Source: Calothrix sp. HK-06 (lineage in GTDB: Bacteria > Cyanobacteriota > Cyanobacteriia > Cyanobacteriales > Nostocaceae). From it: 64,000 bases of DNA. Both the position numbers and the translations under genes were made by a program. The DNA lies in contig NZ_MRCD01000007.1 in the NCBI RefSeq assembly GCF_001904745.1, forward strand, positions 62,001 to 126,000, written 5' to 3'. Under the pieces are notes generated by a model that worked only from the letters and a program-made list of their open reading frames with translations, made no database searches and had not been told where the DNA came from. How positions within the stretch are numbered: the stretch's first letter is position 1; each line of letters opens with the position of its first letter. Below, in pieces: positions 1 to 64,000 of the stretch.

Positions 1-6
1 AAATTC

Positions 7-1173
7 TTAAGTATTAAGTATTGCTAATTCTGGTTCGCAGAGTACTTCGGCAATTGTTGCCACTGTTTCTTTGACCTGACTTGGCGTTAAACCTGGATAC
101 ATTGGCAATGATAGTATTTGTTTTGCTAATGCTTCGGCGTGTGGGAAGTCACCAATTTGATAACCGAGGTTAGCAAAAGCGGGTTGAAGGTGGCATGGTA
201 TGGGGTAATGAATACCTGTTTGAATTCCAGCTTCAATAAATTTTTGCTGCAAGTCTTGGCGAGATATTGAACTATCTTCAGTAATTTTAACAACGTATAG
301 GTGATATACATGTCCTTCGTCGCTTTGATTTTGCATTGGTATTATTCCTTTTGATGCCAATGGCGCCAATTCGGAATCGTAAAGCTTTGCAAGCTGCAAG
401 CGTTGACGGTTCCATGCAGATAAATATGGTAATTTTTCTAACAAGACTGCTGCTTGTAGTGTGTCTAGACGACTATTTGTACCTGGGTCGGTATGATAAT
501 ATTTATACGAGGCACCGTAATTACGTAAGCGCGTCATTTTTTGTGCGACTTCCGCATCACTAGTTAGTAGCATTCCTCCATCACCAATGGCGCCTAAGTT
601 TTTACTAGGGTAAAAGCTAAATGCTGCCGCAGTTCCAACCGAACCAGCGCGATACCCATCACGAGTTGCTAAGTGCGCTTGCGCTGCATCTTCAAAAATC
701 AGTAGGTTATGAGTTTTAGCAAAATTTAATAATTCTAAAGGCGAAACCATTTGTCCATAAAGATGGACTGGAATAATTGCTTTCGTTTTAGATGTAACAG
801 CCGCAGAAGCCGCTTCTAAATCAATTAAGGCTGTTTTTGGGCAACAATCAACAAAAATTGGTGTTGCTCCTGCTCTTATTACCCCTATCAATGTTGCAAC
901 AAATGTGTTTGCTGGCAATATTACTTCGTCATCAACACCAATGTTACAAGCTTGTAGCCCTAGAGCAATGGCATCGGTTCCAGATGCAACTCCTATGCCA
1001 AATTCCGCGTGCGATGCTGCTGCAAATGCTTTTTCAAAATCGGTTAACGCTTTACCTAAAATAAAATCTCCGTTTTGCAGTACAGACTGTATTGCTAAAT
1101 TTATTTGATTTTGAATCGGTTGATGTTGGAAATTTAAATCTACAAAAGGAATTTTAACGTTCATGTTATTCAA
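7..1173 (-). CDS. DegT/DnrJ/EryC1/StrS-family PLP-dependent aminotransferase
   Basis: The 388-residue product has the layout of sugar aminotransferases of the DegT/StrS family, which transaminate nucleotide-linked keto-sugars for surface polysaccharide or glycan synthesis. Visible marks are the N-terminal PFVDL block, the GVASGTDAIALGL cofactor-phosphate region near residue 62, EDAAQAHLA near 161 and the PLP-binding lysine in SFYPSKNLGA (Lys191). Length is normal for the family. Two starts are possible, Met1 or Met4. The gene begins near the window edge and about 690 bp of non-coding DNA separate it from the next gene, so no operon partner is visible. The sugar substrate cannot be told from sequence alone. 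Confidence 0.93.
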   Translation of the reverse strand: MNNMNVKIPFVDLNFQHQPIQNQINLAIQSVLQNGDFILGKALTDFEKAFAAASHAEFGIGVASGTDAIALGLQACNIGVDDEVILPANTFVATLIGVIRAGATPIFVDCCPKTALIDLEAASAAVTSKTKAIIPVHLYGQMVSPLELLNFAKTHNLLIFEDAAQAHLATRDGYRAGSVGTAAAFSFYPSKNLGAIGDGGMLLTSDAEVAQKMTRLRNYGASYKYYHTDPGTNSRLDTLQAAVLLEKLPYLSAWNRQRLQLAKLYDSELAPLASKGIIPMQNQSDEGHVYHLYVVKITEDSSISRQDLQQKFIEAGIQTGIHYPIPCHLQPAFANLGYQIGDFPHAEALAKQILSLPMYPGLTPSQVKETVATIAEVLCEPELAILNT

Positions 1174-1944
1174 ATAATCGTAATTGAAAAATATTTTTAC
1201 TTGTCTGTTTTATAACAAAGTACACTCTATATGTGATTGAGCATAAGTTATTAAACAAATCATAAATGTGAAGGAATTGTAAATTTTGTATTAAGCTTTC
1301 TATTTATTTGCCTTTTCTTTTGCAATTAGATGTATTTTTATTTCTCTACCGCAAACAAGACCGAGTGCTGTCACGAGTTGTAGAGTCTGTACCACTGGTT
1401 GGTTTTCTCTCTTAGATTTGCAGCTAAATTTGCACTAAAAGGCAGTTGTGAATTTATATTTATATATTTGGTTATTTCATATTTTTTAAACCTAAAACTA
1501 TAGTTTCTAATCAATAATTAGCACAATATATTCACCTACCTGCCTCAGTAATAATAATGATATTTGGAATGTTAAAAGTACAAGTACTAGCGTCAGTAAA
1601 TAAATGCCTAATTACCGTAATATTATTGATGTTCGTGATTGAAAAATTACAACAAAGTAACGGGATATTGCTTAGATACGCTGCTGATTCGGCGCCCTTG
1701 TATTGATATTGTGGCTGTAAATGATTATCTCTCTTCGGTTGAATGCGGTAGCAGTAGGGGGTGAAAGCAGTTTTTATAGGGTATTAAACAGTCCGTTGAA
1801 TCGCGGACTTGAGAAGGTAAAAAAAAATTGGTGATAATTGTTTGTCTGGCATAAAAATGGGGAATGCTTAGAAATAGGAATAACCAGTTATGTCGTTGGT
1901 TATATGAAATACACTATCGAGTATTTATCAAGGTAACTGTGGTA
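1174..1944. other. Long AT-rich intergenic region
   Basis: No convincing gene is seen in this divergent spacer between the aminotransferase and the histidine-kinase-like gene. It is strongly AT-rich, with one GGCGCC site near 1690. A 6-bp hairpin, AGTCCG (1790-1795) pairing with CGGACT (1804-1809), lies about 140 bp before the chosen downstream start and might be part of a leader. Both flanking promoters should be here, but no specific operator could be identified. Confidence 0.5.
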
Positions 1945-7416: not shown

Positions 7417-7542
7417 ATATCACTGAAATAACCAGCACCTGACTATTGCCTAACAACAAATTAGGTGTACCAGATGATTGATGAATTTTATATTTCGCTT
7501 CTGCTCGTACCAAACCTGGACTAAAGTTAAACTAAACTTGGA

Positions 7543-8271
7543 CTAAACTTGAAAATTATCTCCTAAGTAATATTGCCTAACAAGAGGGTTGTTATACAGT
7601 TCTTCAGATGTTCCACTTGCAAGTATTTGACCTTCTCGCATAATATACGAACGGTCGGTTATAGCAAGGGTTTCACGAACGTTGTGGTCAGTAATGAGAA
7701 TACCCATGTTGCGGTTCTTTAGTTGTGCGACAATTTGCTGAATTTCGGAAACAGCAATAGGGTCAACACCAGCGAAAGGTTCATCGAGCAATAAAAAGCT
7801 GGGTCCATTTTGACCGGCAGCTAACGCACGTGCTAATTCGCAACGGCGCCTTTCACCTCCCGAAAGTTGGATACCTTTACTCCTAGCAACTTTTTCCAAA
7901 CGGAACTCGCGCAATAGGGTGTCCATTCGCATCGACCATTCCCAGCGGGGTACGTTGGTTTGTTCGAGTACTAAAAGAATGTTTTCGCGTACAGTCAATT
8001 GGCGAAATATGCTTGCTTCCTGCGCTAAATAGCCAATACCAAGACGTGCGCGCTTGTGCATAGGCAAGGCAGTAATATCCATGTTATCAAGCCAGACCTT
8101 GCCTTGGTTAGGTTTTTCTAAACCAGTGGCAATATAAAAGGTAGTTGTTTTACCGGCGCCATTGGGACCGAGTAAACCAACGACTTCTCCTTGAGTAACC
8201 GAAATACTAACGCGATTAACGATTACGCGCTTACCGTAAGATTTATGAATATTCTCTAAAGTTATTTTCAC
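7543..8271 (-). CDS. lptB: Lipopolysaccharide export ABC transporter ATPase LptB
   Basis: This ATPase powers LptF/G-dependent lipopolysaccharide extraction. It carries Walker A GPNGAGKTT (about residues 35-43), the Q-loop, the ABC signature LSGGERRRCELARAL, Walker B FLLLDEPFAGVDP and the switch histidine in ILITDHNVRETL. SGGERRR and the DEPFAGVDP block are typical of LptB rather than of amino-acid transporters. It sits 26 bp downstream of lptA and upstream of lptF, forming a probable lptA-lptB-lptF operon. Confidence 0.95.
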   Translation of the reverse strand: MKITLENIHKSYGKRVIVNRVSISVTQGEVVGLLGPNGAGKTTTFYIATGLEKPNQGKVWLDNMDITALPMHKRARLGIGYLAQEASIFRQLTVRENILLVLEQTNVPRWEWSMRMDTLLREFRLEKVARSKGIQLSGGERRRCELARALAAGQNGPSFLLLDEPFAGVDPIAVSEIQQIVAQLKNRNMGILITDHNVRETLAITDRSYIMREGQILASGTSEELYNNPLVRQYYLGDNFQV

Positions 8272-8297
8272 TTCTTCACACCCAAATAACTACACAA

Positions 8298-8816
8298 TTA
8301 ATTTGAACGTCTTAACGCGGGTGTTCTAGGTGCAGGTGTCGGTCGGGTTTGTGTTTCATCTACAATATAAATCGATTCTACCTGACGACCGCTTTGTGGT
8401 TGGGCGACAAATCTTCCTTGGTCAATTAAATAAACTACTCGCTCGCCTCTAATACTATTGCCGCCTTGTTGTAAAATATACACATTGCCGCTTAAAATAA
8501 TTTGTCGCTCACGGCTGAAGTATTGAGCTTGTGTGGCAGTTGCTTGAATACCACGGGCAGGATAAAACATTTGCACGTTACCGCGTGCTGTAGCGACTTG
8601 GGCTTTAGCGTCGTATTCTTGAGTATCGGAACTAATGCGAATACCGCGATTTTGAGCAGCGTTTTGAGCATTCGCTATAGAAGTTAATGAGGCATTTTGA
8701 TGTCCGAGGTTACTTAGGTTAAAATTGAGGGTGCCGAAAAGTGTAACAGGTAACACTAAAGCTAAACCAAAACGACGAATCTGACTCTTGGTGAGGAAAT
8801 TATTAGCAGGAACCAT
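8298..8816 (-). CDS. lptA: LptA/OstA-like periplasmic lipopolysaccharide bridge protein
   Basis: The 172-residue product has an N-terminal signal segment (about residues 14-49, ending NAQNAAQNRG). One OstA-like domain follows, with the repeating pattern of Lpt bridge proteins: TQEYDAKAQVATARGNVQMFYP, TATQAQYF and RGERVVYLIDQGRFV. This fold builds the beta-jellyroll filament that carries lipopolysaccharide across the periplasm. A Pro/Arg-rich tail ends the protein. No separate lptC is seen nearby. It is the first gene of the lptA-lptB-lptF run, so the operon promoter should lie just upstream of 8816. Confidence 0.9.
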   Translation of the reverse strand: MVPANNFLTKSQIRRFGLALVLPVTLFGTLNFNLSNLGHQNASLTSIANAQNAAQNRGIRISSDTQEYDAKAQVATARGNVQMFYPARGIQATATQAQYFSRERQIILSGNVYILQQGGNSIRGERVVYLIDQGRFVAQPQSGRQVESIYIVDETQTRPTPAPRTPALRRSN

Positions 8817-9120
8817 AAGAATTTGAGGCTTTATTTATAACTTCGTTGTGTTAACGACTTAATTTTAGTGATTTCTAGTAGTATATCCAGGTACTATTGC
8901 ACAATCTGGAATTCCTTACAGAACACACGGTATATTTTGTAGTTTACTATGAGGAATGTAATCGCACCTACTTAGGAAGTAGGACGAACGTGCGGAGCTT
9001 TATGTTTCGTTGGATTTATATTTCGTTGGATGGGACAAGTTAAAATATTTCCTAAATGTCAAGCAATGGTCGATGATATAGAAACAGAAGTCCTAGTAGT
9101 TTAATTTATACTTTTGTCTT
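8817..9120. other. Divergent spacer lptA / DUF2854 gene
   Basis: No gene is seen. The spacer holds an imperfect stem-loop at 8963-8994 (outer CGCAC/GTGCG, inner CTACTT/AAGTAG) and a direct repeat of TTTCGTTGGAT near 9006 and 9021. Promoters for both flanking genes must be here, but none is clear. Confidence 0.4.
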
Positions 9121-9669
9121 ATGTTCGGTAAACTCCGCTTATCTATTCTCGGTTTAACTGTGGGTGGCATTTTAACAACGATTGGTTTTGTAGCTTATGC
9201 TAACGATAACGCTACACTCAACCTGGCTGGTTTCTTTTATGGTATACCTTTATTACTAGGGGGACTAGCGCTCAAAGCTAGCGAACTCGATCCAGTACCT
9301 TTTACTCAACCAACTACCCCAGAAGTATTGAAGCTACGTGAAGAGCAAGCAACTGTCACTCAAAATAAAATCCGTAAAGATATTACTCGCTACTGCTACG
9401 GACAAGAAGCTCATTTCGACCAAGCACTCGAATACTTACAGTTAAGTCCTTCAGATGATGAGATGCCAATAGTCACAGGTTTGCGCGAAACCTCTACTTC
9501 GGGAGCATATACTTTAACATTAGAATTTGATTCACCCTGTGTCCCGTTAGAAGCTTGGCAGGCAAAACAGGAAAAAATGACAAAGTACTTTGGACCCAAC
9601 GTTGACGTTAAAGTCACGCAAACAGGTGAAGAACAAATTGAGCTAACTTTAATTACTACTAATAGCTAA
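9121..9669 (+). CDS. DUF2854 domain-containing membrane protein
   Basis: This conserved cyanobacterial and plastid family has unknown function. The 182 residues begin with two hydrophobic segments (about 8-27 and 33-50, FYGIPLLLGGLALKASELDPVP), which form the typical DUF2854 signature. A soluble region with conserved TRYCYGQEAHFD and LGLRETS-like blocks follows. The gene converges on crr7, with a hairpin between. The pairing with an NDH-1-related gene may be coincidental. Confidence 0.88.
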   Translation: MFGKLRLSILGLTVGGILTTIGFVAYANDNATLNLAGFFYGIPLLLGGLALKASELDPVPFTQPTTPEVLKLREEQATVTQNKIRKDITRYCYGQEAHFDQALEYLQLSPSDDEMPIVTGLRETSTSGAYTLTLEFDSPCVPLEAWQAKQEKMTKYFGPNVDVKVTQTGEEQIELTLITTNS

Positions 9670-9675
9670 AAGTGT

Positions 9676-9703
9676 GTTGGGTTGTGCTGTCGCTACACCC
9701 AAC
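9676..9703. terminator. Bidirectional hairpin between DUF2854 gene and crr7
   Basis: GTTGGGT (9676-9682) pairs with ACCCAAC (9697-9703) between convergent stops. It is a member of the dispersed GTTGGGT...ACCCAAC repeat family also found at 37346, 39560 and twice at 60193-60265. Confidence 0.55.
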
Positions 9704-9710
9704 CTATTAT

Positions 9711-9971
9711 CTATTTTTCTAAGCGCACAGCATACCATTGCAGGTACTCTCCGGGACCAAGGTCTAACTCGCAACTGGTATCAATTAAATGTTTTACTTG
9801 TGCTTCTACTGTATCAAATTGGCGCAAATCATTAGGTAAATTTTCAGAGTTTAGCTTCAGTAAGGTAGCTTTGAGCTTTTCATGTAACTCCGAGACTGAG
9901 ATAATTTGTTCGGGTTGGTTGGTTTCGAGGACGACAAAATAATCTTCCTCATACATTATTGAATTTGGCAT
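9711..9971 (-). CDS. Chlororespiratory reduction protein 7 (Crr7-like)
   Basis: The 86-residue soluble protein matches the CRR7 family, which in plants is needed for accumulation of the chloroplast NDH-1 complex and is widespread in cyanobacteria. Recognisable blocks are the MYEEDYFVVLETNQPEQ start, the central Leu-rich helix and the highly conserved end HLIDTSCELDLGPGEYLQWY. The role in cyanobacteria is inferred from the plant homologue. It is the minus-strand reading; a similar-length open frame on the plus strand is only its shadow. Confidence 0.88.
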   Translation of the reverse strand: MPNSIMYEEDYFVVLETNQPEQIISVSELHEKLKATLLKLNSENLPNDLRQFDTVEAQVKHLIDTSCELDLGPGEYLQWYAVRLEK

Positions 9972-10464
9972 TTTACAGATTAGTTGTATTTTCTAAAACT
10001 TTGGCTTACTAGTATACATGTTCTCTTGGTGAGCCATGTGTGATTATTTCTTTAATTCTAATAGTGTGCGTTGTCTGAATGGCGCCTTTTATAGCAAGCA
10101 GTAGAGCATCATTTTTTTAGAGAATGAGATTAGACGGGAATAGATGGGAAATATAAAATTACACCTAGCTGTCTATAGGTTAAAAAAGTAAACCAATTTT
10201 TGTATCTTGTATACAGTGTCTATGCATCACCGTCATTTACTGCCCGTATTAATTTCGTTAAATCATCACAAAATTCACAATGCAGTATTTTACTGCTGGC
10301 ATTTTTATCATCTTAGATATCTAAGTAATTCAGCGTAATAAATATTTTTTAAATATACATATATAAATAGTGTAACTTACGCAAAATCACTCTTATAGTA
10401 TACAACTTTTTGCGATAAAAAGCTCGCTAACAACCAAATTTAAAATATTTTTATTACGCAACTC
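9972..10464. other. AT-rich intergenic region upstream of the diguanylate cyclase
   Basis: No gene or RNA is recognised. It contains one GGCGCC site (10082) and long A/T runs. It should hold the divergent promoters for crr7 and the response-regulator gene. Confidence 0.4.
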
Positions 10465-11502
10465 ATGTCAGGGAAAAGACCAATTACGATTTCTAGTAAA
10501 CCACCTTTGATTCTTGTGGTTGATGATGATAAAATCATGCGGTTATTACTGCGTGAGTTTATGGAAAAAGAAGGTTATCGAGTAGTTGAAGGAAATAATG
10601 GTAAAGATTGTCTAGAAGCTTTTGCTTTAGAAAAGCCAGATTTAATACTGCTGGATGCGGTAATGCCAGAAATGGACGGTTTTACTTGCTGTAAAGAACT
10701 GCTTCAGATTGCCAAGAATAATCTTGCCGTTGCACTTGCCAACTTTGACAGTGGTAATGGTTCACTTGGTAATACAGTGATTTCCAAGCTTTGGGAACGA
10801 ACTCCAATATTGATGATTACTGGACTAGATGACCCAGAGTCAGTAGACCATGCGTTTGAAGTTGGAGCTAGTGATTTTGTGACTAAACCTATTCACTGGG
10901 CAGTATTGCGTCAGCGAGTCCGAAGACTATTACAGCAAGCTCAACTTTATAAACAACTAGAAGCGGCAAACCAAGCTTTACAGCAACTTGCAAACGTTGA
11001 TGGGTTGACAAATGTCGCAAATAGGCGCCACTTTGACCAATGTATCAATTCCAAGTGGTTAACTCTAGCACAAGAAAAGGCGCCATTATCACTGATATTA
11101 TGTGACATTGATTATTTCAAACGTTACAACGACAAATATGGACATCCAGCAGGAGATACATGCCTGCAAAAAGTTGCTACTGTCTTGAAATACACAGCAC
11201 AAAAACACCAGAATTTAGTCGCGCGTTACGGTGGAGAAGAATTTGCGGTAATTATGCCATATACCACTGCTGCCAGTGCAGTGAGTATTGCAGCATCAAT
11301 GCAAGCAGGAGTACGCGAACTGGAACTAGTCCACGTTGAATCTGCTGTCAGTCAATATGTAACCTTGAGTTTAGGAGTCGGCACAATTATTCCGAGTTTT
11401 GACTCCTCACCCCAAGAGTTAATAACAATTGCTGACAAAGCGCTATACCAAGCCAAAGAACAAGGGCGAAACCGTATTATCATTAAACAAGCACAAACTT
11501 AA
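10465..11502 (+). CDS. PleD-type response regulator with GGDEF diguanylate cyclase domain
   Basis: A receiver domain (about residues 14-155, phospho-acceptor Asp64 in LILLDAVMPEMDGF, KPIHW lysine at 141) is joined to a GGDEF domain (about 175-340) with active-site GGEEF at 256-260. The product would make cyclic di-GMP on phosphorylation. The receiver carries an insertion of roughly 25-30 residues between helix 3 and strand 4 (NNLAVALANFDSGNG...). The inhibitory I-site RxxD is replaced by KHQN (247-250), so product feedback is probably lost. No cognate kinase is adjacent. The GGEEF motif is intact, so an active enzyme is likely. Confidence 0.92.
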   Translation: MSGKRPITISSKPPLILVVDDDKIMRLLLREFMEKEGYRVVEGNNGKDCLEAFALEKPDLILLDAVMPEMDGFTCCKELLQIAKNNLAVALANFDSGNGSLGNTVISKLWERTPILMITGLDDPESVDHAFEVGASDFVTKPIHWAVLRQRVRRLLQQAQLYKQLEAANQALQQLANVDGLTNVANRRHFDQCINSKWLTLAQEKAPLSLILCDIDYFKRYNDKYGHPAGDTCLQKVATVLKYTAQKHQNLVARYGGEEFAVIMPYTTAASAVSIAASMQAGVRELELVHVESAVSQYVTLSLGVGTIIPSFDSSPQELITIADKALYQAKEQGRNRIIIKQAQT

Positions 11503-11859
11503 TGAATTTAATCAGAGAAATGAATACATAAAAAACCATTTTGTCAAATTCAAAAATTAGTAATAACACGTATAAAAAAACTTTAAAATAATTATTTTCA
11601 AATTAAAAGTGCCAGAACTGATGATTACCAATTCTGACACTCTATTTACAGTCTATTTTTTTATGTAGGAGTCATAAAAAAGGTTGACTCCTGTTTAATA
11701 ACGGTTATTTATTTTCAGGATCTTTATATAGGCTGACCCCGTTTCAACAATTATTAGTTTCTCAGAAATTTTGGCATTTTCAAATTTTCTAATATTTTTT
11801 TAATGTTTCCTCACCTTTAATTGCGACATGTTGCGTTGTGTGAACAATCATTACGTTAA
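11503..11859. other. Intergenic region with two stem-loops
   Basis: No gene is seen. Two hairpins follow the diguanylate cyclase. The first pairs AGTGCCAGAA (11608-11617) with TTCTGACACT (11632-11641), one mismatch. The second pairs AGGAGTCA (11667-11674) with TGACTCCT (11685-11692), perfect. Either could end transcription; neither has a classical U-tract immediately after it. Confidence 0.45.
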
Positions 11860-12156
11860 TCATTTTGATTTTCGTTGCTCCCGTTGAAGTTCCCATCGCC
11901 AAAGAAACCCCATGAGAGCAATGACTCCTACTTGTAGCGCAAAATTAGGCAATGCAACTTCAACATCACGCCCAGCTATAATTTGGGATAAAAATACAAA
12001 GGCGCCGATAAAACCAGAAGCAGCACAACCAACATAAATAAACTTGCGAAACCCTCGATAAGGAGCAGCCATCTCAGCTACCAAACGCGCTCTTATTTCT
12101 GGGTCGAGTTGAGAAGCGCGTCCCTTAACCTGTTCAGACGAATTTTTTTCTACCAT
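11860..12156 (-). CDS. DUF3493 domain-containing membrane protein
   Basis: This 98-residue protein has two hydrophobic segments (about 38-58 and 69-85). The family core is QLDPEIRARLVAEMAAPYRG followed by FRKFIYVGCAASGFIGAFV. DUF3493 occurs in cyanobacteria and in plant LPA1-type photosystem II assembly factors; a photosynthesis-related membrane role is therefore an inference. The gene is divergent from the adjacent tRNA-Thr gene, only about 45 bp away, so their promoters overlap. Confidence 0.87.
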   Translation of the reverse strand: MVEKNSSEQVKGRASQLDPEIRARLVAEMAAPYRGFRKFIYVGCAASGFIGAFVFLSQIIAGRDVEVALPNFALQVGVIALMGFLWRWELQREQRKSK

Positions 12157-12200
12157 ATTTATGCAAATAGTGCTATAGTTGTGTAGAATTTATATTGTAT

Positions 12201-12273
12201 GCCGATGTGGCTCAGTTGGTAGAGCACTCGATTCGTAATCGAGCGGTCGCGGGTTCAAATCCCGCCATCGGCT
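12201..12273 (+). tRNA. tRNA-Thr (anticodon CGT)
   Basis: The cloverleaf is complete. Acceptor arms GCCGATG and CATCGGC pair over 7 bp, the D-arm includes GCTCAGTTGGTAGAGC, and the anticodon stem CTCGA/TCGAG encloses loop TTCGTAA. The T-arm is GCGGG TTCAAAT CCCGC, and the discriminator base is T. Anticodon CGT reads threonine codon ACG. CCA is not encoded. The DNA downstream holds decayed toxin-antitoxin genes. Confidence 0.96.
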
Positions 12274-12478
12274 TAGTAAAGTTATCAGTAGTTTTCGCAA
12301 TATCACCATGAACGTTTTTATGACGCGAATGGTGAGGTTTGTAATAACTTCCGTAAACCGATAATCCGCAAGCTTGATATTCTGTCATACCAGGAAAAAG
12401 TTCTTTACCTGGGTTTTCTTTACGCCATGATAAAAAATCCTCTGGCATCGGTACAGTGCGCTGGTCAGTTTGTGCCAC
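12274..12478 (-). other. Short unrecognised open frame beside tRNA-Thr, possible gene remnant
   Basis: A minus-strand frame begins MAQTDQRTVPMPEDFLSWRK near 12478 and reads on through the tRNA gene, which cannot be coding. The first 65 residues are not low-complexity and could be the start of a lost gene (ENPGKELFPGMTEYQACGLS). No family was recognised. Its position between a tRNA and toxin remnants fits mobile or accessory debris. Confidence 0.25.
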
Positions 12479-12515
12479 TTGCTCCTGCCCTGCTAGACTG
12501 GAAGCTCACAAATCA

Positions 12516-12536
12516 TAGCACTTGGTGCTATATAAT
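12516..12536 (+). promoter_or_regulatory. Palindrome plus -10 box before the relE-like fragment
   Basis: TAGCAC (12516-12521) and GTGCTA (12525-12530) form a perfect inverted repeat directly abutting TATAAT (12531-12536). The pair lies 19 bp before the ATG of a RelE-like fragment. This looks like a former toxin-antitoxin promoter with its operator, kept after the gene decayed. Function is inferred. Confidence 0.4.
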
Positions 12537-12554
12537 AAGTGAAGGACTTATAGT

Positions 12555-12686
12555 ATGGTGATCTACAAAACCCGATGGTTCGACCGTTGGGCACGCAAGC
12601 AGGGACTGGATGACCTTAGTCTTTGCGCTGCCCTTAAACTACTGCATATAGTTCAGAAACGGGGGTTGGAGAGTGTAATCATTTAA
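12555..12686 (+). pseudogene. RelE/ParE-family toxin, truncated remnant
   Basis: The 43-codon frame starts MVIYKTRWFDRWARKQGL and continues DDLSLCAA, which is the N terminus of the RelE-like (COG4737-type) toxins, normally about 110-125 residues. After that the sequence (LKLLHIVQKRGLES) no longer matches, and a stop follows. The catalytic C-terminal half and the antitoxin are absent. It is therefore a broken toxin gene, probably harmless. Confidence 0.6.
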
Positions 12687-12713
12687 GGGGTTAACCGTTA
12701 ACGTTCCGAATTT

Positions 12714-12904
12714 TTATTGCTCGAATTCTTGCATTAGTATTTTATGATCTTTCCACATATCAAGGCGCCCATCACGATAGATTTTAGCGATAAATGGAGC
12801 GGGATGCTTACGAACAAACTCTTGCATAGGGACGATAGCATTTAAAAGATTGTTGCCATATCTTCCCCTGATACACTTTGAGAGGCAAAGGCAAACATTT
12901 TCAT
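12714..12904 (-). pseudogene. PIN-like toxin, C-terminal remnant with frameshift
   Basis: Two adjacent frames join into the end of a PIN-like domain protein. FAFASQSVSGEDMATIF ends at a stop near 12850, and a shifted frame continues VPMQEFVRKHPAPFIAKIY and then DGRLDMWKDHKILMQEFEQ. Cyanobacterial PIN-like toxins usually end with this PAPFIAKIYRDG block. The N-terminal catalytic half is missing. The adjacent upstream DUF433 fragment is the expected antitoxin partner. Family assignment is from recall of the motif. Confidence 0.5.
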
Positions 12905-12963
12905 ATTGACACTTTTGTCAAAGTGATTGTCATGAACTTAAACAGTAATAGTTTTAGGCTCAG

Positions 12964-13032
12964 TCATGCGGCATCACTAATAGAGTAGGTTTGGATGTCT
13001 CTAGGGTCTATTCCTCCGTAAAGGTCAGTCAT
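12964..13032 (-). pseudogene. DUF433-type antitoxin, N-terminal remnant
   Basis: The 22-codon frame MTDLYGGIDPRDIQTYSISD followed by AA and a stop matches the first residues of DUF433 antitoxin proteins, which typically start with an LYGGxDPREIPxYS motif. Everything after that is lost. It sits upstream of the PIN-like toxin remnant in the usual antitoxin-toxin order. Confidence 0.5.
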
Positions 13033-13069
13033 AAACGTATTTGCCAAGAGACGTTATTATTAATTATAG

Positions 13070-13633
13070 TCAAAGTTTTAATTCAAATCCTGGTAAAACA
13101 TCTTCGCCAGAAAGTTTAACTGGGAGTGCAACGACTTCTACAGGTTGCGCTTGGCGATAAATCTCTACCTCTTGATCTTGAGGATTCACTAGCCAACCTA
13201 AACGTAAACCATTTTCCAAATATTCCTTCATCTTGTCTTGCAAGCGTTTAAGAGCATCAGTTTCAGAACGCAGTTCAATCAAAAAGTCAGGTGTAAGGGG
13301 TGGAAATTTTTTATGCTGTTCAGGAGTCAATGCATTCCAACGCTCTAAACTTACCCAAGCAGCATCGGGAGAACGATTGGCGCCACTTGGTAATCTAAAA
13401 ATAGTCGAAGAACTAAAAACTTTACCTAATTTACTTTGGCGATTCCAAATTTCTAAATCGGTAATCAAACCAGCTTCGTTATTACCGCTTTCTCCTCCGA
13501 CTGGCGCCACAATAACTAACTCCCCATCAGCATTCAACTCTAGGCTTAAATCACGGTTTGCCATGCACAATTGATAAAATTGCTCGTCTGTTAGATGAGC
13601 GATTGGCTCTAAATTTAGCACAACGGTATTCAT
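13070..13633 (-). CDS. Uma2 family (DUF820) putative endonuclease
   Basis: The 187-residue protein has the Uma2 fold of the PD-(D/E)XK nuclease superfamily, which is greatly expanded in cyanobacteria. Visible marks are LTDEQFYQLCMANRDLSLEL, the SPDAAWV block with the first acidic residue (about 93), and PDFLIELRSETD (about 119-130), which gives the ExR variant of the active site. The function of these proteins is not established; a link with mobile DNA has been proposed. It is intact and stands alone next to a patch of decayed toxin genes. Confidence 0.9.
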   Translation of the reverse strand: MNTVVLNLEPIAHLTDEQFYQLCMANRDLSLELNADGELVIVAPVGGESGNNEAGLITDLEIWNRQSKLGKVFSSSTIFRLPSGANRSPDAAWVSLERWNALTPEQHKKFPPLTPDFLIELRSETDALKRLQDKMKEYLENGLRLGWLVNPQDQEVEIYRQAQPVEVVALPVKLSGEDVLPGFELKL

Positions 13634-14353
13634 GGAAAATTTCCTGTTCTTTTAAATCAAATATAACTCAAATCCAAGTAAAACGTTAGTAGATGAATTG
13701 ATAGAGGTAAATTTTAATGCGGAAGAAGATTAGAGCCGCTCTTGATGACCCAGACCATAATTGGGAATTTTGATTTTACATTTGAAATTTTCACTCATTA
13801 TCTATTTATGTAGTTAAGTAGGTGGGTGTAAAAATTTATAACTATGTCGTCACGAGTGGAACGGGATAAAACGAAGCAATCGCAAGCACTTTGGGAGTTT
13901 TACATTTCGTTACATAGTTCGGTTTATTTGAGCCTACCTACTTATATTGACTACACAAATAGTTGAATCATTTACTTTTGTTAAAAACAAATTGAACAAC
14001 ACTTGTTCTAATATCAAAGCTATGAATAACCTATTTATTGCAGTACGAACTAACTTTATTGTCGATTGGATTTTAGATAGTATTCTAAATATTATTTTCA
14101 ATCAACCTTTGTGAATGGCTTTTTAAGTTTATTGATGTATGGATTTTTAATAGATTGGGAAAAATCGTATTCTTTCATGAGAAAAAATCACGGTATTGTT
14201 GACGTTTAGTTGCTAAACATGTAAAATTCGGCACACTTAATGTTTGTCGTTGGCTTGTGGCGCCTATATTTGTTTATTCTTTGATAATAGCTGATTTCAC
14301 AGGATAGCTTGGTCTGAATCTATATAAGTATAAGTTTATAAAATAGAGGTGTT
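13634..14353. other. Long AT-rich intergenic region with a foldback element
   Basis: No intact gene is seen in these 720 bp. An imperfect inverted repeat of about 55 bp per arm spans 13802-13961 (listed separately). A tiny frame at 13717 (MRKKIRAALDDPDHNWEF) could be the end of a lost gene. The rest is A/T-rich with no recognised promoter or RNA. Confidence 0.4.
13802..13961. repeat. Imperfect foldback (inverted-repeat) element
   Basis: The left arm (from 13802, CTATTTATGTAGTTAAG...) aligns with the reverse complement of the right arm (ending 13961, CTATTTGTGTAGTCAA...). They share GTAGGTgGG near the middle and AACTATGT at the inner end. Many differences are transitions that would still pair as G-U in RNA. 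About 48 bp separate the arms. It may be a decayed MITE or a structured RNA. Confidence 0.45.
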
Positions 14354-14551
14354 TTGATGACTCAAATCAATTATGATGGTATCTCAGACCAACAGTTAAA
14401 GCAGTATTTTCTTCGGAACCGTGAAGATAAATTAGCACTTCAGGCGTATTTGGATAGGTTAAGCACACGCGAAGGTAAGGTTATTGCTACTGCTAATGAC
14501 CCTGATTTTGAGGCAAAATTAAAGCGGCAATTGAGGAAAAAATGCGAATGA
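14354..14551 (+). CDS. Small DUF6887-like protein, apparently frameshifted near its end
   Basis: The 65-residue product resembles the small DUF6887 proteins of cyanobacteria: SDQQLKQYFLRNREDKLALQ, AYLDRLSTREG, DPDFEAKLK. A sensible Shine-Dalgarno, GAGGTG, lies upstream. After DFEAKLK the frame reads RQLRKKCE and stops, while the +1 frame reads AAIEEKMRMKGKS to a stop at 14565, which looks more like the family's end. One base was probably lost near 14521. Function unknown; no DUF6888 partner follows. Confidence 0.55.
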   Translation: MMTQINYDGISDQQLKQYFLRNREDKLALQAYLDRLSTREGKVIATANDPDFEAKLKRQLRKKCE

Positions 14552-14651
14552 AAGGCAAGTCTTAGAAATGTCACGTTTCAGCTATGGAACTTTAAAGTAA
14601 GGAAATACTCAAAATTATTACATTTGGTGTATGGATTTTGCGTTGATGCTA

Positions 14652-14717
14652 AGAAACCTGGTTTCTTTTGGTTTTGTTGAGGATTGTTGTGTTCAGTGAT
14701 GAAGAAACCAGGTTGCT
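14652..14717. repeat. 66-bp foldback element, AGAAACC type, copy 1
   Basis: The outer ends are AGAAACCTGGTTTCT (14652-14666) and AGAAACCAGGTTGCT (14703-14717), inverted relative to each other with one mismatch. Each end is itself palindromic. A second element with exactly the same length lies at 20916-20981. It is located just beyond the 3' end of flv1. Confidence 0.6.
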
Positions 14718-14744
14718 GGTTTTTGGTGGCATAAGCCACCTTAC

Positions 14745-16448: not shown

Positions 16449-16481
16449 GGCAGTTAAAAAGTTAGGAGTTAGTAGCTTTCA

Positions 16482-16498
16482 GGTGGGCACTGCCCACC
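16482..16498. repeat. Dispersed hairpin repeat between flv3 and flv1
   Basis: GGTGGGCA-C-TGCCCACC is a perfect 8-bp stem in the short gap between two co-directional genes. It may attenuate flv1 relative to flv3 or stabilise flv3 mRNA. It is also the intact version of the sequence interrupted by the MITE at 61851. Confidence 0.6.
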
Positions 16499-16505
16499 TT
16501 ACGAT

Positions 16506-18230: not shown

Positions 18231-18364
18231 AGCTCTCCTCCTTTATAAATTAAGTATTTATTACATCTAGCTCTATTGTGGCATGAGTTAAATGTAAATA
18301 ATTATTAAAAAAACTATCGATGAGTTAAATAAAACAAAAGAGTCAGGAGTTAAGAGGCGTGGAG

Positions 18365-18416
18365 GGGCGGGTTTACAAAATTCTTCATTATAACTAGGAT
18401 ATGGGTTAACCCGCCC
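18365..18416. repeat. GGGCGGGTTTA...TTAACCCGCCC dispersed repeat
   Basis: Arms at 18365-18375 and 18406-18416 pair around about 30 AT-rich bases. The same pair of arms recurs at 31673-31726, 54364-54416 and in the tandem array at 54468-54662. Here it lies immediately before coaX and after the divergent flv3 start region, so it could form part of the coaX leader. Confidence 0.6.
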
Positions 18417-18435
18417 GTACAGGTGTAAGGAGTTG

Positions 18436-19176: not shown

Positions 19177-19197
19177 AAAATAAAATTTTTATAAGTA

Positions 19198-20034: not shown

Positions 20035-20182
20035 TTTAATGTAGAAGCAAGGAGTAAAAAGTTAATAAAAGCGTGACCGCGTTATTATTGACTTCTGTTA
20101 TACACGCAGTTCATCGGGAACGTGCGGAAATAAAAGTCAGAGTTATTAATTTTAGGTACTCAAAATAATAAATACTATTGTA

Positions 20183-26162: not shown

Positions 26163-28780
26163 ATGCTGAAAAAATTGTCTTTATCTCTATCATTAACGTT
26201 ACTGTTTCTAAGTATATTTACTTCAACAGTAAATGCTCAAACTGAAGAAACTGCTGAACCATCCGTAATTACCTTTAGACCGCGTGTTGGCGCCGGGTAT
26301 AGAACAGAAGGCGCCGGATATAATCCATATGGTAGTTTTGATATATTTTTGCCAGTATTGCAAAACCCTGGTAGAAGTCTTACTTTTATTGAAGGCAAAA
26401 TGCTTTGGGATACTGATACAGATTCACTCGGTGGTAATATATTACTAGGGCATCGCGTTATTAACGATGCTAAAAATCGTATAATTGGCGGTTACGTTTC
26501 GTATGATGCTCGCAACACTGGGCAAACTGTTTTTAACCAACTTGGTGTCGGTTTTGAAAGTTTAGGTAATTGGGATTTTCATCTTAACGGTTATCTTCCT
26601 ATTAGCAAAAGCAGTAACCAGTTATCTGAAAATGTCTTGGCAAGTCCTTCTTTTGTGGGTAATTCGTTACAGTTAGATAGAGTTAGAGTATTTCAACAGG
26701 CATTTTCTGGTGTTGATGCAGAAGTTGGGACAAAACTTGCTTCTTGGAATAACGGTGCCTTACGCGGTTATGCTGGAGGTTATGTATATAGCAGCGAAGG
26801 TATTCCTACTTTTGTAGGTGTTCGAGGTCGAGTTGTTGGAAATTGGGACGGTTTAACGATGGGACTATCGTTACAAAATGATTCCCAGTTTGATACTCGC
26901 TTAGTATTTAATATTGGCGCCAGTTTGGGAGGTGTCAAGAATAAGAATAATAATCAAAGTGTACTCGCACGCATGGGTGAATCAGTACAGCGTGAATCTA
27001 GCATTATTGTAGATAACCGAGTTGTTAAAGATACCGTTCCTGCCATCAACTCGAATGGAGGAGGAATTACATTATTTAGTGTAGCTGACAACCAATCAGG
27101 AAATCTTGGCGCCGCTTTAGCTTCAGCAAAAGCAAATGATATTGTTTACGTACAAGCAGGTACAAATTCTAATGTTGGTAGTTTTTCAGTACCTAGTCAA
27201 GTACGAGTATTATCAAGTGGGCCAGTACAAACAGTTAGCACGCAAGCTGGAAACGTACAAATACCTGGTTCGGGTACAGGAATATTACCTAAATCAGGAA
27301 CAATTACTTTAGCAAGTGGTGGTACTAATCAAGTTTTATCTGGATTTGCAGTTACTAATACTTCTGGTCAACCTGGTATTGTTGGTATAAATAATACCAA
27401 CGCGAGTATTTTACAAAACCAAGTTACTATTAATGGTGCCAATACAAATACGCTTCTTGCTGGTAGAGGTATTGTACTTGTAGGCGCCAATGGGACTACA
27501 AAGATTGATAATAATACCGTTAGAAACGCGATTGGTGAAGGTATTCGTTTAGATAATGTTAGCGGTAAAGCGTCAATTACCAACAACATCGTTCTCAATA
27601 CCATCCAACCACAAACTCAAACAGGGTTAGAGGCTAGTATCTTTATTCGCAATAACAGAGGTGATGTTGATTTAACTATTACCAAAATAACACAGTGGGA
27701 GATAATAATACTCGCTCTACCTTTAATAATGATGGAGTAACTCCTACAGTTGCGAATGAAATAGATGGGATTGAATTTAGCCTTTGCCGGAGTTACGCTG
27801 CACCAGTCTTGGATACTTTTGCTAAGTGTAGTGGTACAGCAACGGCACAAGTTGCCATCTTAAATAATACCGTTAGAAATATTGGTGTAATTGGAAGTGG
27901 TGATGGCGCCGATGGTATTGATATTAACCTAAATAATGGTGACGACAATACAGATACAGGAGCTAGAGTTAGGAGTTTGACAATTAGTGGTAATAGAATT
28001 TCTAATATTGCCGATAAAGGTGTAAGCTTTGGCGCCGATGGAGACGCTATTTTAAGCCAAGGTATTGTCACCAATAATATAGTTGATACTGTAGGAGATA
28101 TTGGACTTGCTTTGCGTTCTCGTTTCAATGCAACATCCAATTATGTTGCTACTGGCAACACAATTAGAAATGCTGGAAATAACGGTATTGAATATATTCT
28201 GACTCGTAATGACAATAATTCTGTTAGTACTGGTCTTGTTTCTAATAATACAATATTTAATAGTGGTAGTAATGGAATTGCAGTTGGCGCCCGTGGTACA
28301 GGACAACAAACTGTTACTGTTTCTAGTAACACGATTACCAATACTCTTACTACTGGTAGTACTAGAGGTATTGACGTTCAAACACAAGAAAATGGCAAAC
28401 TTCAGTTAACACTAGATACAAATACAATTAGCGGTAGTCGCTCAGAAGGTATTCGTATTCGTACTGGTACTAATGCTGGTAATTCACAAGTTAATACTAG
28501 TGTTAAAAATAACAATTTACTCAGTAATAACACTGCTGGTACAGCTACTGGTGGTTTAACTGCGAGTTCTGCTAATAATTCTAATTTCTGCTTGGCATTA
28601 CGCAATAATACAGCAGGCGCCACTTTAACTACAGGTTACGCTTTTACTCGAAGTAGTGCTTCAATTTTTAGAGTTGAGAATGCTTTGTTGACAACTAATA
28701 CTGGCACGTTTAGTCCAGCTTTACCACTTCCTGCTGCTAATTTTACTAGTGTTGCTACTGGTACTTGTGGTTTACCTTAA
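26163..28780 (+). CDS. Inverse-autotransporter-like outer-membrane protein with beta-helix passenger (frameshifted)
   Basis: Two overlapping frames (26163-27740 and 27695-28780) form one gene of about 870 codons. Part one has a signal peptide (KKLSLSLSLTLLFLSIFTST..NAQ) and an inverse-autotransporter-type barrel (about residues 30-270: PRVGAGYRTEGAGYNPYGS, GHRVINDAKNRIIGGYVSYD). A right-handed beta-helix with repeated N-N-T and GI motifs follows and continues in part two to the end. The frame changes near 27684-27687, where an A4 run appears to need one more A. Restored, ITNNTVGDNNTRS-like helix sequence is continuous. The passenger is probably surface-exposed. It is flanked by two binding-protein genes. 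Confidence 0.8.
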
Positions 28781-52388: not shown

Positions 52389-53903
52389 TCACCCTCTCAC
52401 CCTCTTTATTGGCGCCCTTCCATATAGTGTAGTTAAGTTTTTAAATTTGGTGATGAGTTCGGATGTTAGCTCATGGTCATGATATCGCCATTCCCAGTTA
52501 CCTTCAGCTTTACCTGGGAAATTCATGCGTGCATCTCCACCATGTCCCAAAACATCTTGTAATTGAATAATTGCTTGATTTGCAATTGAACTCAATGCCA
52601 ACCGGATAAAATCCCAGTGGGCACCGTCATGGTTTATATTACCTAGATACATTCGCAGTTTTTCTTTCTCCCAATCGCTCGCTTGGCTAAACCAACCCTC
52701 ACAAGTGTCATTATCATGAGAACCTGTGTAAACTACAGAGTTTCGAGTGTAATTAAATGGTAAAAACGGGTTTCCAGGGTCGGAACCAAAAGCAAATTGT
52801 AGTATTTTCATACCCGGAAATTCAAACTTGTCTCGTAATGCCTCAACTTCGGGTGTAATTACTCCCAAATCTTCAGCTAATATGGGTAATTTACCTAACT
52901 TTTTCGCAATTTTTTGAAATAATGCTTCACCGGGCGCCTTTATCCATTTACCATTTTCTGCTGTTTCTTCACCTTGGGGAACTGCCCAATACGCTTCAAA
53001 TCCTCGAAAATGGTCAATACGAATAATATCAACGTAGTCGAGCATGACTTCAAAACGTTTGATCCACCACGCAAAGTCTTGTTTCTCTAATTGTGCCCAA
53101 TTGTAAACAGGGTTTCCCCACAGTTGACCTGTAGCACTAAAATAATCTGGTGGAACTCCTGCCATTAATTCAGTTTCGCCTTTTTCATCCAAACAAAATA
53201 TTTCTGGATTTGCCCATACATCTGCACTATCGTGAGCAACATAAATTGGGATATCACCAATAATTTCGATACCACGCTGGTTTGCGTAGGTTTTAAGTTG
53301 TGACCATTGATGAAAAAATTGAAACTGAACGAATTTTTGGTAAAATATCAATTCTTCGAGTTCTTTATGCGCGGTGGCAATACTATCGGGTTTGCGTTTT
53401 GCATATCCTGGTTCCCAGGTGTACCAACTGGCGCCATTATGTGATTCTTTTAACGCCATAAACAAAGCATAATCATTTAGCCAGTTAGCTTTGAATTCAC
53501 AAAATGTGTCAAACGCTTTGCGCTGTTTTGAAGTTGCTTGACTTTTAAAGTTTTTACAAGCAATTTTGAGTAAATTGGTTTTGTAAGGAAATACAGCCTC
53601 GAAATCGACTTTGTGCGTCATAAAATCGGGTATATTACCAAAGTCCCAATCTGCCAGCAAATTGTCTTCGCGTAATTTGTCTAAACTAATTAAAAATGGA
53701 TTACCTGCCATTGCTGAGTAACACATGTATGGGGAATTACCATACCCGGTAGGACCAAGCGGTAAAACTTGCCAGTACTGTTGATTACTACTTTCTAAAA
53801 AATCAATGAAACGATAAGCCTCGTATCCTAAATCCCCAATTCCAAATCGACTGGGAAAACTAGTAGGATGCAGTAAAACACCACTGGACCTCGGAAATGG
53901 CAT
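52389..53903 (-). CDS. malQ: 4-alpha-glucanotransferase (disproportionating enzyme)
   Basis: MalQ transfers alpha-1,4-glucan chains during glycogen metabolism. The 504 residues include the GH77 blocks: [21 protein letters not shown] at the N terminus, [17 protein letters not shown], the nucleophile region [12 protein letters not shown], acid/base [11 protein letters not shown] and GSHDNDT. Length is normal for the short bacterial and plastid type. It is one of the most conserved genes in the window. It is divergent from the Nudix gene (37 bp). Confidence 0.97.
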
Positions 53904-60265: not shown

Positions 60266-60289
60266 CTACACTTCTAAGTTTTTAAAGCA

Positions 60290-61839: not shown

Positions 61840-61842
61840 TAA

Positions 61843-61966
61843 GGTGGGCAGGGAGCATCCACTTTTGGAAGAAACATAAGTACTTGGTGCCAAAAACCTG
61901 ACTATACGGTTGGTGTAAAAAAGTCGATCTGCCAAAACTGGATGCTCCCGGTGGGCACTGCCCACC
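61843..61966. repeat. GGTGGGCA dispersed hairpin, interrupted by a MITE
   Basis: The repeat GGTGGGCA-C-TGCCCACC seen intact at 16482 is split here. GGTGGGCA is at 61843-61850, and GGTGGGCACTGCCCACC is at 61950-61966, with the MITE between. GGTGGGCA appears twice because of target-site duplication. Confidence 0.7.
61851..61949. mobile_element. 99-bp MITE-like element with 18-bp terminal inverted repeats and 8-bp target duplication
   Basis: The ends are GGGAGCATCCACTTTTGG (61851-61868) and CCAAAACTGGATGCTCCC (61932-61949). They are inverted repeats over 18 bp with one mismatch. The flanks carry an 8-bp direct repeat, GGTGGGCA (61843-61850 and 61950-61957), so it jumped into the centre of a hairpin repeat; removing the element and one flank restores the known repeat exactly. 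There is no ORF inside, so it must depend on a transposase elsewhere. The TIR and 8-bp duplication do not decide the IS family; ISL3- or ISAs1-like are possibilities. Confidence 0.85.
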
Positions 61967-62009
61967 ATACCATCTATCAGTATATTTTCTCATTAAAAAT
62001 AAAAAAAAA

Positions 62010-62651: not shown

Positions 62652-62680
62652 AATTGAAACCTCCTTATTAACAAAATTTT

Positions 62681-62920
62681 TTACAAATACCAACAGCGCT
62701 TTAAAGTGTGAATTAACTGGCAACGCGATGCCGTAAATTGCTGAACTACGCTCCAAAGTTGAATTGCTGCTGTGACGTTGCTTATTTCTACAGTCAGTGG
62801 CTGATTCATTCCACATGCACAACTAATATTTAGTTCTTGCAAGCGCGTATATACCTGCCAACGGTCTGTCCAATCCACCGAAATAACTATCTTTGCCTCT
62901 GGTGTGGTTAAATGCTTCAC
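62681..62920 (-). CDS. Asr1405/Asl0597 family protein
   Basis: The 79-residue cyanobacterial protein matches the Asr1405/Asl0597 family: DWTDRWQVYTRLQELNISCA, NQPLTVEISNVTAAIQLWSV, and a C-terminal LIHTLKRCW block. Two central cysteines (CACGM) are present. The function is unknown. Asr1405 is known from heterocystous Anabaena, so its presence suits a filamentous host but does not prove it. It probably shares a transcript with the [2Fe-2S] protein gene downstream (29 bp). Confidence 0.85.
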   Translation of the reverse strand: MKHLTTPEAKIVISVDWTDRWQVYTRLQELNISCACGMNQPLTVEISNVTAAIQLWSVVQQFTASRCQLIHTLKRCWYL

Positions 62921-63164
62921 AAAATTCCTCTTTAAAAATCCAATTAAATTACAGCAATACTACTTATTTAATTCACATTCGAGATGTGCCACTTGAGAAA
63001 GATAGCAAATTAGCCCTTTCTACAAGCATACTATAAGTGCAAATAATTATCAGTAATTTTTGCAAAAAAAATAAAAATATTTCTCAAATGGCTTGCTACA
63101 TAAGCATTTTGAAGGCGCCCACTCATGTGCAGGCACCGACCAATAATTATTGGCGCTTTTTATG

Positions 63165-64000
63165 CTATGCAGCCTTTTGGAACAAATAAACGTCTGTACG
63201 CTGATAAATTAATTTGTAGTCAGTACGGTTTTTGAGAGAATTTACTAAGCGCTGCGCCGATTCAGAATCATTCACCCAACCAGGATGACGAACATCCATA
63301 AGTATATAATCATATTTGACTATATCTGAGAAAGCTTGTTCTTTAAAAGCCATGTTTATATTTTGTCTATGGGTGAGATGAGGTGATATTGCTGGAGTGG
63401 TGAGTACACTTGCCCTAAGTTTAACTTTTGATACTGCTTCTCGCGTTGCTTGCCAAGTATCGAGTTTATCTAAGTATAAACTTCCAAAGTAAGTATATTT
63501 TGCTAGCAGTAGAAATCCAATTAATGACCAAATAATAATGCTGCGTCGCTTGTTTATTAATCCTTTCCCCACAGCTAATGTCGCAATTAACGCTAGTATT
63601 AAAAACGGGACTGCTGCTACAGAGTAATGATTGACTATATTTTTTTGCGGTTGATAGTCAGCTATTATATTTAACGCTACACAAGGAATTGCGCCTATTA
63701 ATGGTGCGGTGCCAAATAATGATAGTCCCCAAATTACTGGCACCGTCAGTAATATTAAATATTCTAAATTTTGTAAACTCAGAATTTTACCTAAAACTAT
63801 TTGTGGTTTGGTTAATAAGTTTTTGCCAATTTCCCATACTGAGTTACCCAAATAATCATAGCGACCAACTGCTGCTGCTTCTTTGCCGCTAAAAGTAGGA
63901 ATAATTACTCCAGATGCAATTACAAACCAAGCTACACCTATAGTAATAGCCACGGCGCCCTCTTTAGAGCGTTTTTCAAAAAGTAATAGCCAAGCACCCA
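63165..64000 (-). CDS. DUF2079 domain membrane protein (5' end outside the window)
   Basis: The frame runs off the window edge: upstream of the first in-window start-like codon it stays open to 64000 (GAWLLLFEKRSKEGAVAITI). The visible 278 codons contain about seven membrane helices (LILLTVPVIWGLSLFGTAPL, HYSVAAVPFLILALIATLAV, RRSIIIWSLIGFLLLAKYTY) and a periplasmic tail with LTHRQNINMAFKEQAF, DYILMDVRHPG. That is the C-terminal part of a DUF2079 protein, usually about 450-500 residues. The function is unknown; some relatives resemble glycosyltransferases of the GT39/83 type. The stop is at 63165. Confidence 0.85.
   Translation of the reverse strand, partial: GAWLLLFEKRSKEGAVAITIGVAWFVIASGVIIPTFSGKEAAAVGRYDYLGNSVWEIGKNLLTKPQIVLGKILSLQNLEYLILLTVPVIWGLSLFGTAPLIGAIPCVALNIIADYQPQKNIVNHYSVAAVPFLILALIATLAVGKGLINKRRSIIIWSLIGFLLLAKYTYFGSLYLDKLDTWQATREAVSKVKLRASVLTTPAISPHLTHRQNINMAFKEQAFSDIVKYDYILMDVRHPGWVNDSESAQRLVNSLKNRTDYKLIYQRTDVYLFQKAA

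Follow-up and report, generated by a model that had tools for sequence, protein, structure and literature searches.

GGCGCC as a genus-wide alternate highly iterated palindrome in Calothrix sp. HK-06 and its relatives, possibly kept as a methylated mark

The cyanobacterial highly iterated palindrome HIP1 (GCGATCGC) is tied to methyltransferases, and its purpose is still open, with several possibilities under discussion (Elhai, 2015; PMC4390886). In the sections of that paper on which we draw, GGCGCC is described as the "alternate HIP" of Calothrix PCC 7103, a strain in which GATC is depleted and which carries a GATC restriction enzyme and two GRCGYC methyltransferases; the evidence for GGCGCC came from this one genome and from 19 kb of Calothrix D253. 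The same sections treat exceptional HIPs as sporadic and as failing to persist in clades, and suggest that a hypothetical mismatch repair directed by G(m5C) (m5C, 5-methylcytosine) may produce their abundance as a by-product (PMC4390886). Our literature search, with most subscription papers outside its scope, found GGCGCC recognised as a HIP only there (PMC4390886). Here we analyse a 64-kb stretch of Calothrix sp. HK-06 (contig NZ_MRCD01000007.1, positions 62,001-126,000, forward strand; hereafter the window), in which GGCGCC is repeated far above expectation, together with the HK-06 genome (9,990,453 bases in 243 contigs) and six further genomes of the genus. This genus, in the family Nostocaceae, is that of Calothrix PCC 7103 and Dulcicalothrix desertica PCC 7102; the other four genomes are NIES-4105, FI2-JRJ7, Calothrix sp. 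PCC 7716 and the metagenome-assembled genome (MAG) C42_A2020_038. GGCGCC replaces HIP1 in all seven genomes, and many of its sites are common to all of them. On balance, we lean slightly towards reading GGCGCC as an alternate HIP that would be methylated by a resident enzyme and kept by selection for a dense mark.

In the window (39.6% GC), an exact count gave 114 copies of GGCGCC where base composition predicts 3.9 and a first-order Markov model 6.6. No other hexamer exceeds that model by as much, the next palindromic hexamer, CGCGCG, having 19 copies. By frame, 54 sites read as Gly-Ala, 17 and 28 fall in the other two frames and 15 lie outside mechanically called open reading frames (ORFs). 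HIP1 and CGATCG were both counted at zero. A preliminary description made by eye, with about 114 copies, one every 560 bp or so, in coding and non-coding DNA and often in frame as Gly-Ala, and with HIP1 unseen, was accurate on each of these points. The Markov hexamer count that it had set beforehand as a check agreed in a 464-kb sample of HK-06 (the window plus 200 kb from each of contigs C1 and C178), where the first-order observed-to-expected ratio (O/E) of GGCGCC was 18.7, the highest among all hexamers. The whole HK-06 genome contains 15,449 copies (~1,546 per Mb, or about one per 650 bases) and 6 copies of the reversed control CCGCGG; HIP1 is not abundant elsewhere in the genome either, with only 88 copies vs 66 for its own reversed control. 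The unit is the hexamer, since the octamer TGGCGCCA, which had been put forward as a favoured context, occurs near its heptamer expectation (20 copies vs 16 in the window, 107 vs 92 in the 464-kb sample); as a repeat unit it was rejected. The other members of GRCGYC are depleted in the sample (O/E 0.36 for GACGCC/GGCGTC and 0.10 for GACGTC), and the sole one-off neighbours of GGCGCC in excess are GGTGCC/GGCACC (first-order O/E 1.43). GATC and GGCC are also severely depleted (O/E 0.11 and 0.14), which is the background on which HIP1 is missing. With its extreme over-representation, its 1,000-2,000 copies/Mb, its composition as a 100% GC palindrome where HIP1 is low, and a genome encoding a methyltransferase predicted from homology to recognise it, GGCGCC has the attributes of an alternate HIP; it falls outside the HIP1 class proper, which is defined by GCGATCGC at high frequency.

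The density of GGCGCC is 1.15-1.71 per kb in all seven genomes of the genus (7,475-20,380 sites each). Among the other 210 of the 217 genomes in our family survey, the median is 3.7/Mb and the maximum 111/Mb, and none holds more than 1,053 copies. Orthologous loci gave a similar result: with the malQ-like gene of the window as query, 80 loci were obtained from named genomes (a set from which HK-06 itself may be missing), and the six nearest (PCC 7716, FI2-JRJ7, PCC 7103, D. desertica PCC 7102, NIES-4105 and MAG C42_A2020_038) carry GGCGCC at 1.16-2.28/kb with 0-1 HIP1, vs 0-4 GGCGCC per locus and HIP1 mostly at 0.2-1.8/kb in the other 74. GGCGCC in place of HIP1 is a trait of the whole genus, and the description of such palindromes as sporadic therefore fails for this case. 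In a class survey of 388 genomes, only one of them from this genus, high raw counts of GGCGCC otherwise occurred mostly where the control was also high, in GC-rich genomes. Two distant cyanobacteria in that survey have a weaker specific excess (G448, 1,169 copies vs 25 of the control in 5.3 Mb; G561, 3,074 vs 165 in 7.7 Mb) and are possible independent cases. A third genome (G435) has 9,489 copies in 3.8 Mb with a control count of 2,450, three of its genus mates (G281, G423 and G461) having 304-343; it is either a GC-rich outlier or a mixed assembly.

The genus has 89 matches to the C5-methyltransferase family PF00145, and those on 56 fetched loci were clustered (55 distinct C5-methyltransferase ORFs). 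Two clusters are present in all seven genomes. The first (L004 type), whose HK-06 gene shares the window's contig, 43 kb upstream, and which is perhaps DmtD-like, a guess from Elhai's text, also occurs across the family (170 of 217 genomes); as a family-wide enzyme it does not explain the GGCGCC trait and was rejected as its cause. The second (P0001/L059 type) is present in 62 of the 217 family genomes, including all seven of the genus, and shares 54% identity with an annotated "modification methylase HindV" (hindVM). We take Haemophilus influenzae Rd to be the HindV host. This strain appears with GRCGYC m5C methylation in a published listing, of which we use that entry (PMC8565308), and M.BsaHI was found experimentally to methylate the central C of GRCGYC, according to the relevant section of PMC2413257. 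The M.HindV/M.BsaHI motif (TL, an upstream Arg and a nearby Gly/Ala) is present in the P0001-type enzyme, the Gly/Ala being one position off the description in that section (PMC2413257); resident copies carry RR[G/A]-x9-TI and the accessory copies L040, L057 and L068 have RK. Among NCBIfam models only general cytosine-methylase families matched, and among solved structures the matches were of HaeIII, HhaI and DNMT type. The likely writer is this predicted M.HindV/M.BsaHI-type (GRCGYC) C5-methyltransferase.

The cognate restriction enzyme, RE_HindVP (PF09519), occurs in none of the seven genus genomes and in 43 of the 217 family genomes, fragments included; the genus does not have a HindV restriction-modification system. 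The search for an orphan methyltransferase suggested in the preliminary description thus led to a HindV-type enzyme in 7/7 genomes and RE_HindVP in 0/7. Outside the genus, the P0001-type gene adjoins an RE_HindVP-like gene in three of five loci viewed, two of which were scanned with PF09519. Among the non-genus genomes, the median density of GGCGCC was 0.69/Mb with the methyltransferase and a full-length RE_HindVP (n=24), 0.96/Mb with the methyltransferase and a partial or broken one (n=15), 1.16/Mb with a restriction remnant alone (n=4), 5.07/Mb with neither (n=151) and 8.5/Mb with the methyltransferase alone (n=16; range 0.3-42.6). Without phylogenetic correction, the comparison with genomes having neither gave p=6e-6 for the full-length restriction enzyme and p=0.35 for the methyltransferase alone. 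These densities fit the putative GRCGYC specificity of the P0001-type enzyme.

In the six genomes other than HK-06, the methyltransferase gene adjoins a RuBisCO-like gene (6/6), with a GHL10-type gene on the opposite side in 5/6; other ORFs stand in the expected place of the latter in FI2-JRJ7, and a small ORF intervenes in NIES-4105. The RuBisCO-like and GHL10 families were scanned in locus L054 only, the other neighbour loci being judged by eye. In HK-06, the RuBisCO-like neighbour is on contig C29 (L007), where the similarity to the methyltransferase stops at a PPC motif ~50 bases before the contig end, and the GHL10-like neighbour is on C207 (L008), a contig that starts ~100 residues further into the methyltransferase gene. 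A full-length copy, 85% identical and with a PF00145 match, lies on contig C60 (L003). A second, truncated copy on C60 (L003 365-1096) starts at the same PPC motif, so that either an insertion or an assembly break may lie behind the pattern, and an Rfam search of the four loci around the broken copies returned nothing at E 0.05. On a NIES-4105 plasmid, repeats that translate as a periodic peptide and resemble a CRISPR array by eye lie beside a HindV-type copy (L068 489-1364). Very short patch repair was rejected as a cause of the enrichment, the Vsr endonuclease (PF03852) being absent from all seven genus genomes and present in 1 of the 217 family genomes.

Syntenic blocks of the seven genomes were aligned to count retention and loss. 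On terminal branches, the third base of GGCGCC (C3) changed to T at 52 of 1,260 cytosines (0.041) vs 0.0154 at other CpG, the rates at C5 and C6 being 0.004 and 0.0056. PCC 7103, PCC 7716, HK-06 and FI2-JRJ7 each clearly exceed the rate at other CpG in the first block. Summed over five lineages in two blocks, there were 151 losses among 1,165 site-branches, and 10 gains; C3->T accounts for 108 of these recent losses, as expected of GG(m5C)GCC. This footprint would agree with methylation of the central C of GRCGYC, although it is not unique to GGCGCC. Altogether, there is fair support for 5-methylation of the two central cytosines by the resident GRCGYC enzyme acting without a restriction partner, as predicted from the family to which that enzyme belongs.

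Despite this decay, the sites are kept over long distances. From PCC 7103 to NIES-4105, GGCGCC is retained at 0.792 in ORFs (n=274), where other hexamers stand at 0.466, and at 18 of 23 sites outside them (other hexamers, 0.460). At conserved Gly-Ala pairs, GGC|GCC was kept 126 times in 147 and other codon pairs 59 times in 130; the third base of GGC was kept at 0.864 before GCC vs 0.558 elsewhere. Protein constraint would predict poorer retention than is observed. With HK-06 as the anchor, GGCGCC ranks first of 787 hexamers in retention for NIES-4105 and fourth of 951 for MAG C42_A2020_038. Of 157 sites aligned in all seven genomes, 77 (49%) are present in at least six and 16 in one only, vs 12-34% and 32-57% for ten comparison hexamers. 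Sites of the MAG are kept in five ingroup genomes at 0.72-0.83 through ~18.5% divergence (all hexamers, 0.31-0.32), values similar to those between close relatives (0.72-0.90). On two deep branches, GGCGCC changed at 1 of 41 and 3 of 43 sites vs 21.7% and 23.0% for other hexamers; these counts are small and passed a filter that favours robust sites. Young losses are frequent, yet they do not seem to accumulate, and purging by selection is the simplest account of this, the alternatives being restoration by recombination and differences in constraint between sites. That the sites persist through selection for a dense methylated palindromic mark is less certain than their methylation; it is the account that we favour, and it is unproven.

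Several observations weigh against this interpretation. On the side of the enzyme, the specificity assigned to the P0001-type methyltransferase is predicted by homology, the resident HK-06 gene is in pieces at contig ends at its home locus, and the 16 non-genus genomes with the methyltransferase and without RE_HindVP show no enrichment of GGCGCC, so that the methyltransferase alone is not sufficient; no reader protein of the mark was identified. Nor is the footprint unique: its C->T rate is matched or exceeded at five other CpG hexamers (102-191 opportunities each), placing GGCGCC at rank 6 of 54; C5 is not in a CpG, so the contrast between C3 and C5 is partly a CpG effect; and in D. desertica PCC 7102 the first block lacks the C3->T excess (1/170 cytosines vs 0.0103 at other CpG). 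On the side of retention, sites outside ORFs are kept at an ordinary level from PCC 7103 to PCC 7716 (0.765, n=34, vs 0.729), short-range retention from HK-06 to the close PCC 7103 is ordinary (rank 370 of 1,101), just 0.51-0.56 of ingroup sites are present in the MAG, which has fewer sites, and loss on terminal branches outpaces that of other hexamers in four of five lineages (ratios of 1.01 in D. desertica PCC 7102, 1.24 in PCC 7716, 1.75 in FI2-JRJ7, 1.96 in PCC 7103 and 2.07 in HK-06). Given fast young losses and ordinary short-range retention, long-range retention needs purging or reversion of losses, or else strong heterogeneity between sites. As to differences between lineages, the idea that D. 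desertica PCC 7102 hardly loses sites (1/85) was weakened by a larger count (16/222, vs 45/248 in PCC 7103; Fisher p 0.0005).

The published ratchet would explain the abundance without selection on individual sites: mutations to GGCGCC are fixed by a mismatch repair that depends on G(m5C), up to about one site per kb, and the abundance is a by-product of repair (proposed in the sections of PMC4390886 cited above). The methyltransferase that it requires is present and predicted to methylate C3, which mutates faster than the average CpG; GGTGCC changed to GGCGCC 3 times in 32 opportunities vs a background of 0.78%; and gaps below 100 bp are scarcer than random expectation in all 12 stretches in which spacing was analysed. 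Against this, the process would deplete GGTGCC, and GGTGCC/GGCACC are in excess; gains are rare next to losses; many sites are old and shared; and the argument made with the model, in the same sections, against the persistence of alternate HIPs in clades does not hold for GGCGCC (PMC4390886). We regard the ratchet as rather unlikely. The mismatch repair named in the preliminary description corresponds to this model, on which our results bear indirectly. A strong general T-to-C conversion at GGTGCC was rejected separately, GGTGCC not being depleted.

It is also conceivable that a past burst of gains on the stem of the genus was followed by passive decay, with nothing maintaining the sites now. 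The predominance of losses over gains, the faster loss of GGCGCC than of other hexamers in four lineages and the partial presence of ingroup sites in the MAG are what such a history would leave. However, decay at the terminal rate is estimated to leave fewer MAG sites in the ingroup than observed, the rate of non-C3->T losses is 0.29-0.58 of the change rate of other hexamers in all five lineages, and the third base of GGC is retained above its codon-matched control. We hold this history to be improbable, and give a little less credit still to a molecular drive through recombination or DNA uptake, in which GGCGCC alleles would be preferentially taken up or copied and lost sites restored from the population, in the manner of DNA uptake sequences. 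Back-conversion from other strains would match the common young losses that do not build up on deep branches, but GGCGCC is a simple 6-mer palindrome that lies in every reading frame. Known DNA uptake sequences are longer.

A structural (nucleoid or SMC-type, structural maintenance of chromosomes) positioning signal requiring regular spacing is very hard to credit, since 9 of the 12 stretches, which are partly syntenic and not independent, are compatible with random spacing and one shows more clustering, even though the window (coefficient of variation 0.73; none of 2,000 shuffles as low at printed precision) and one NIES-4105 stretch (p 0.008) are more regular. Regular spacing of GGCGCC is not supported, and the nucleoid function suggested in the preliminary description found no backing.

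Returning to a methylated mark kept by selection, the following sequence of events could have produced it. As proposed by Elhai in the sections cited (PMC4390886), GATC restriction probably removed HIP1 first; a DpnII-type pair in HK-06 (PF04556 and PF02086 on L011, from a genus search that covered HK-06 only) and the GATC depletion fit such a loss. A GRCGYC methyltransferase of the M.HindV/M.BsaHI type, free of a restriction partner, would then methylate GG(m5C)GCC, and selection for a dense methylated palindromic mark would oppose the C-to-T decay that methylation causes. In repair or replication, the mark may serve to label a strand or self DNA. A broader proposal, which we put forward tentatively and think less likely than not, is that HIP palindromes are exchangeable: a dense cytosine-methylated palindromic mark, and not the letters of HIP1, would be what is selected, and the genus would have exchanged GCGATCGC for GGCGCC a single time, along with a new orphan writer, and would since have kept thousands of sites by selection, through ~18% nucleotide divergence, against methylation-driven decay. 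A clade in which a different methyltransferase-linked palindrome replaces HIP1 is a natural experiment on the purpose of HIP1. If the sites are selected, function lies in the density of methylated palindromes, and PCC 7102, PCC 7103 and PCC 7716 are named strains in which to seek it. The result also bears on the view, taken in the published sections used here, of alternate HIPs as non-persistent and of their abundance as perhaps an epiphenomenon (PMC4390886).

Table 1. Features of the 64-kb HK-06 window, in window coordinates.
Feature	Position	Strand	Remarks
GGCGCC, 114 copies	1..64000	.	first 362-367, last 63954-63959; mean gap 563 bp; 11-18 per 8 kb; HIP1 none
GATC and GGCC depletion	1..64000	.	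GATC 16 vs 134.9 expected; GGCC 17 vs 130.2 expected
Close pair of GGCGCC, 21 bp apart	26289..26315	.	example from listed positions
malQ-like 4-alpha-glucanotransferase gene (Glyco_hydro_77)	52389..53903	-	query for orthologous loci in named genomes

Besides these features, the window contains a 949-residue ORF (39593-42442) with no Pfam match at E 1e-10. In the 464-kb sample of HK-06, CGCGCG ranks second in enrichment among palindromic hexamers (O/E 4.4), and TGCGCA, GCATGC, ACGCGT, GTCGAC, CCGCGG, GAGCTC and GGGCCC are nearly absent from it, perhaps through past restriction systems. Contig C168 (L293) has an island at ~4-16 kb in which GATC is ordinary (5-16 per 2 kb) and HIP1 occurs 8 times in 12 kb; it looks like recently acquired DNA. 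A dispersed repeat of ~125 bp (L020 19417-19543, contig C1) has many near-identical copies in HK-06 and is also found in other members of the genus.

Among described systems, GGCGCC resembles HIP1 in its density (~1 per kb) and as a palindrome tied to methyltransferases, as HIP1 is in the sections of PMC4390886 cited, and differs from it in sequence, HIP1 itself being reduced to its few copies in HK-06. It resembles GCsGC of Cyanothece PCC 7822 and rCCGGy of Oscillatoria PCC 10802, which the same sections present as over-represented GC-rich palindromes, in genomes low in HIP1 and with a fitting methyltransferase (PMC4390886); the sequences differ, PCC 10802 having been viewed here at one 21-kb locus (L160). 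The enzyme is like M.HindV/M.BsaHI in its identity to hindVM, in its TL motif with the upstream arginine and in having RE_HindVP alongside in some other genera, and departs from the HindV system in that the genus lacks RE_HindVP and the gene lies beside a RuBisCO-like gene in all six genomes other than HK-06. The closest match is the alternate HIP of PCC 7103, with the same hexamer, near-absent HIP1, GATC depletion and GRCGYC methyltransferases, in the same genus; the present case goes beyond the account in those sections in covering all seven genomes, in the conservation of sites and in the absence of RE_HindVP from the genus (PMC4390886). The suggestion in the preliminary description of a HIP1 substitute tied to a methyltransferase was thus sound in substance, with the palindrome and a GRCGYC-type enzyme in 7/7 genomes, and was not new, having been published for PCC 7103. 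The phenomenon is known from a congener; the genus-wide trait and the conserved sites are the new evidence.

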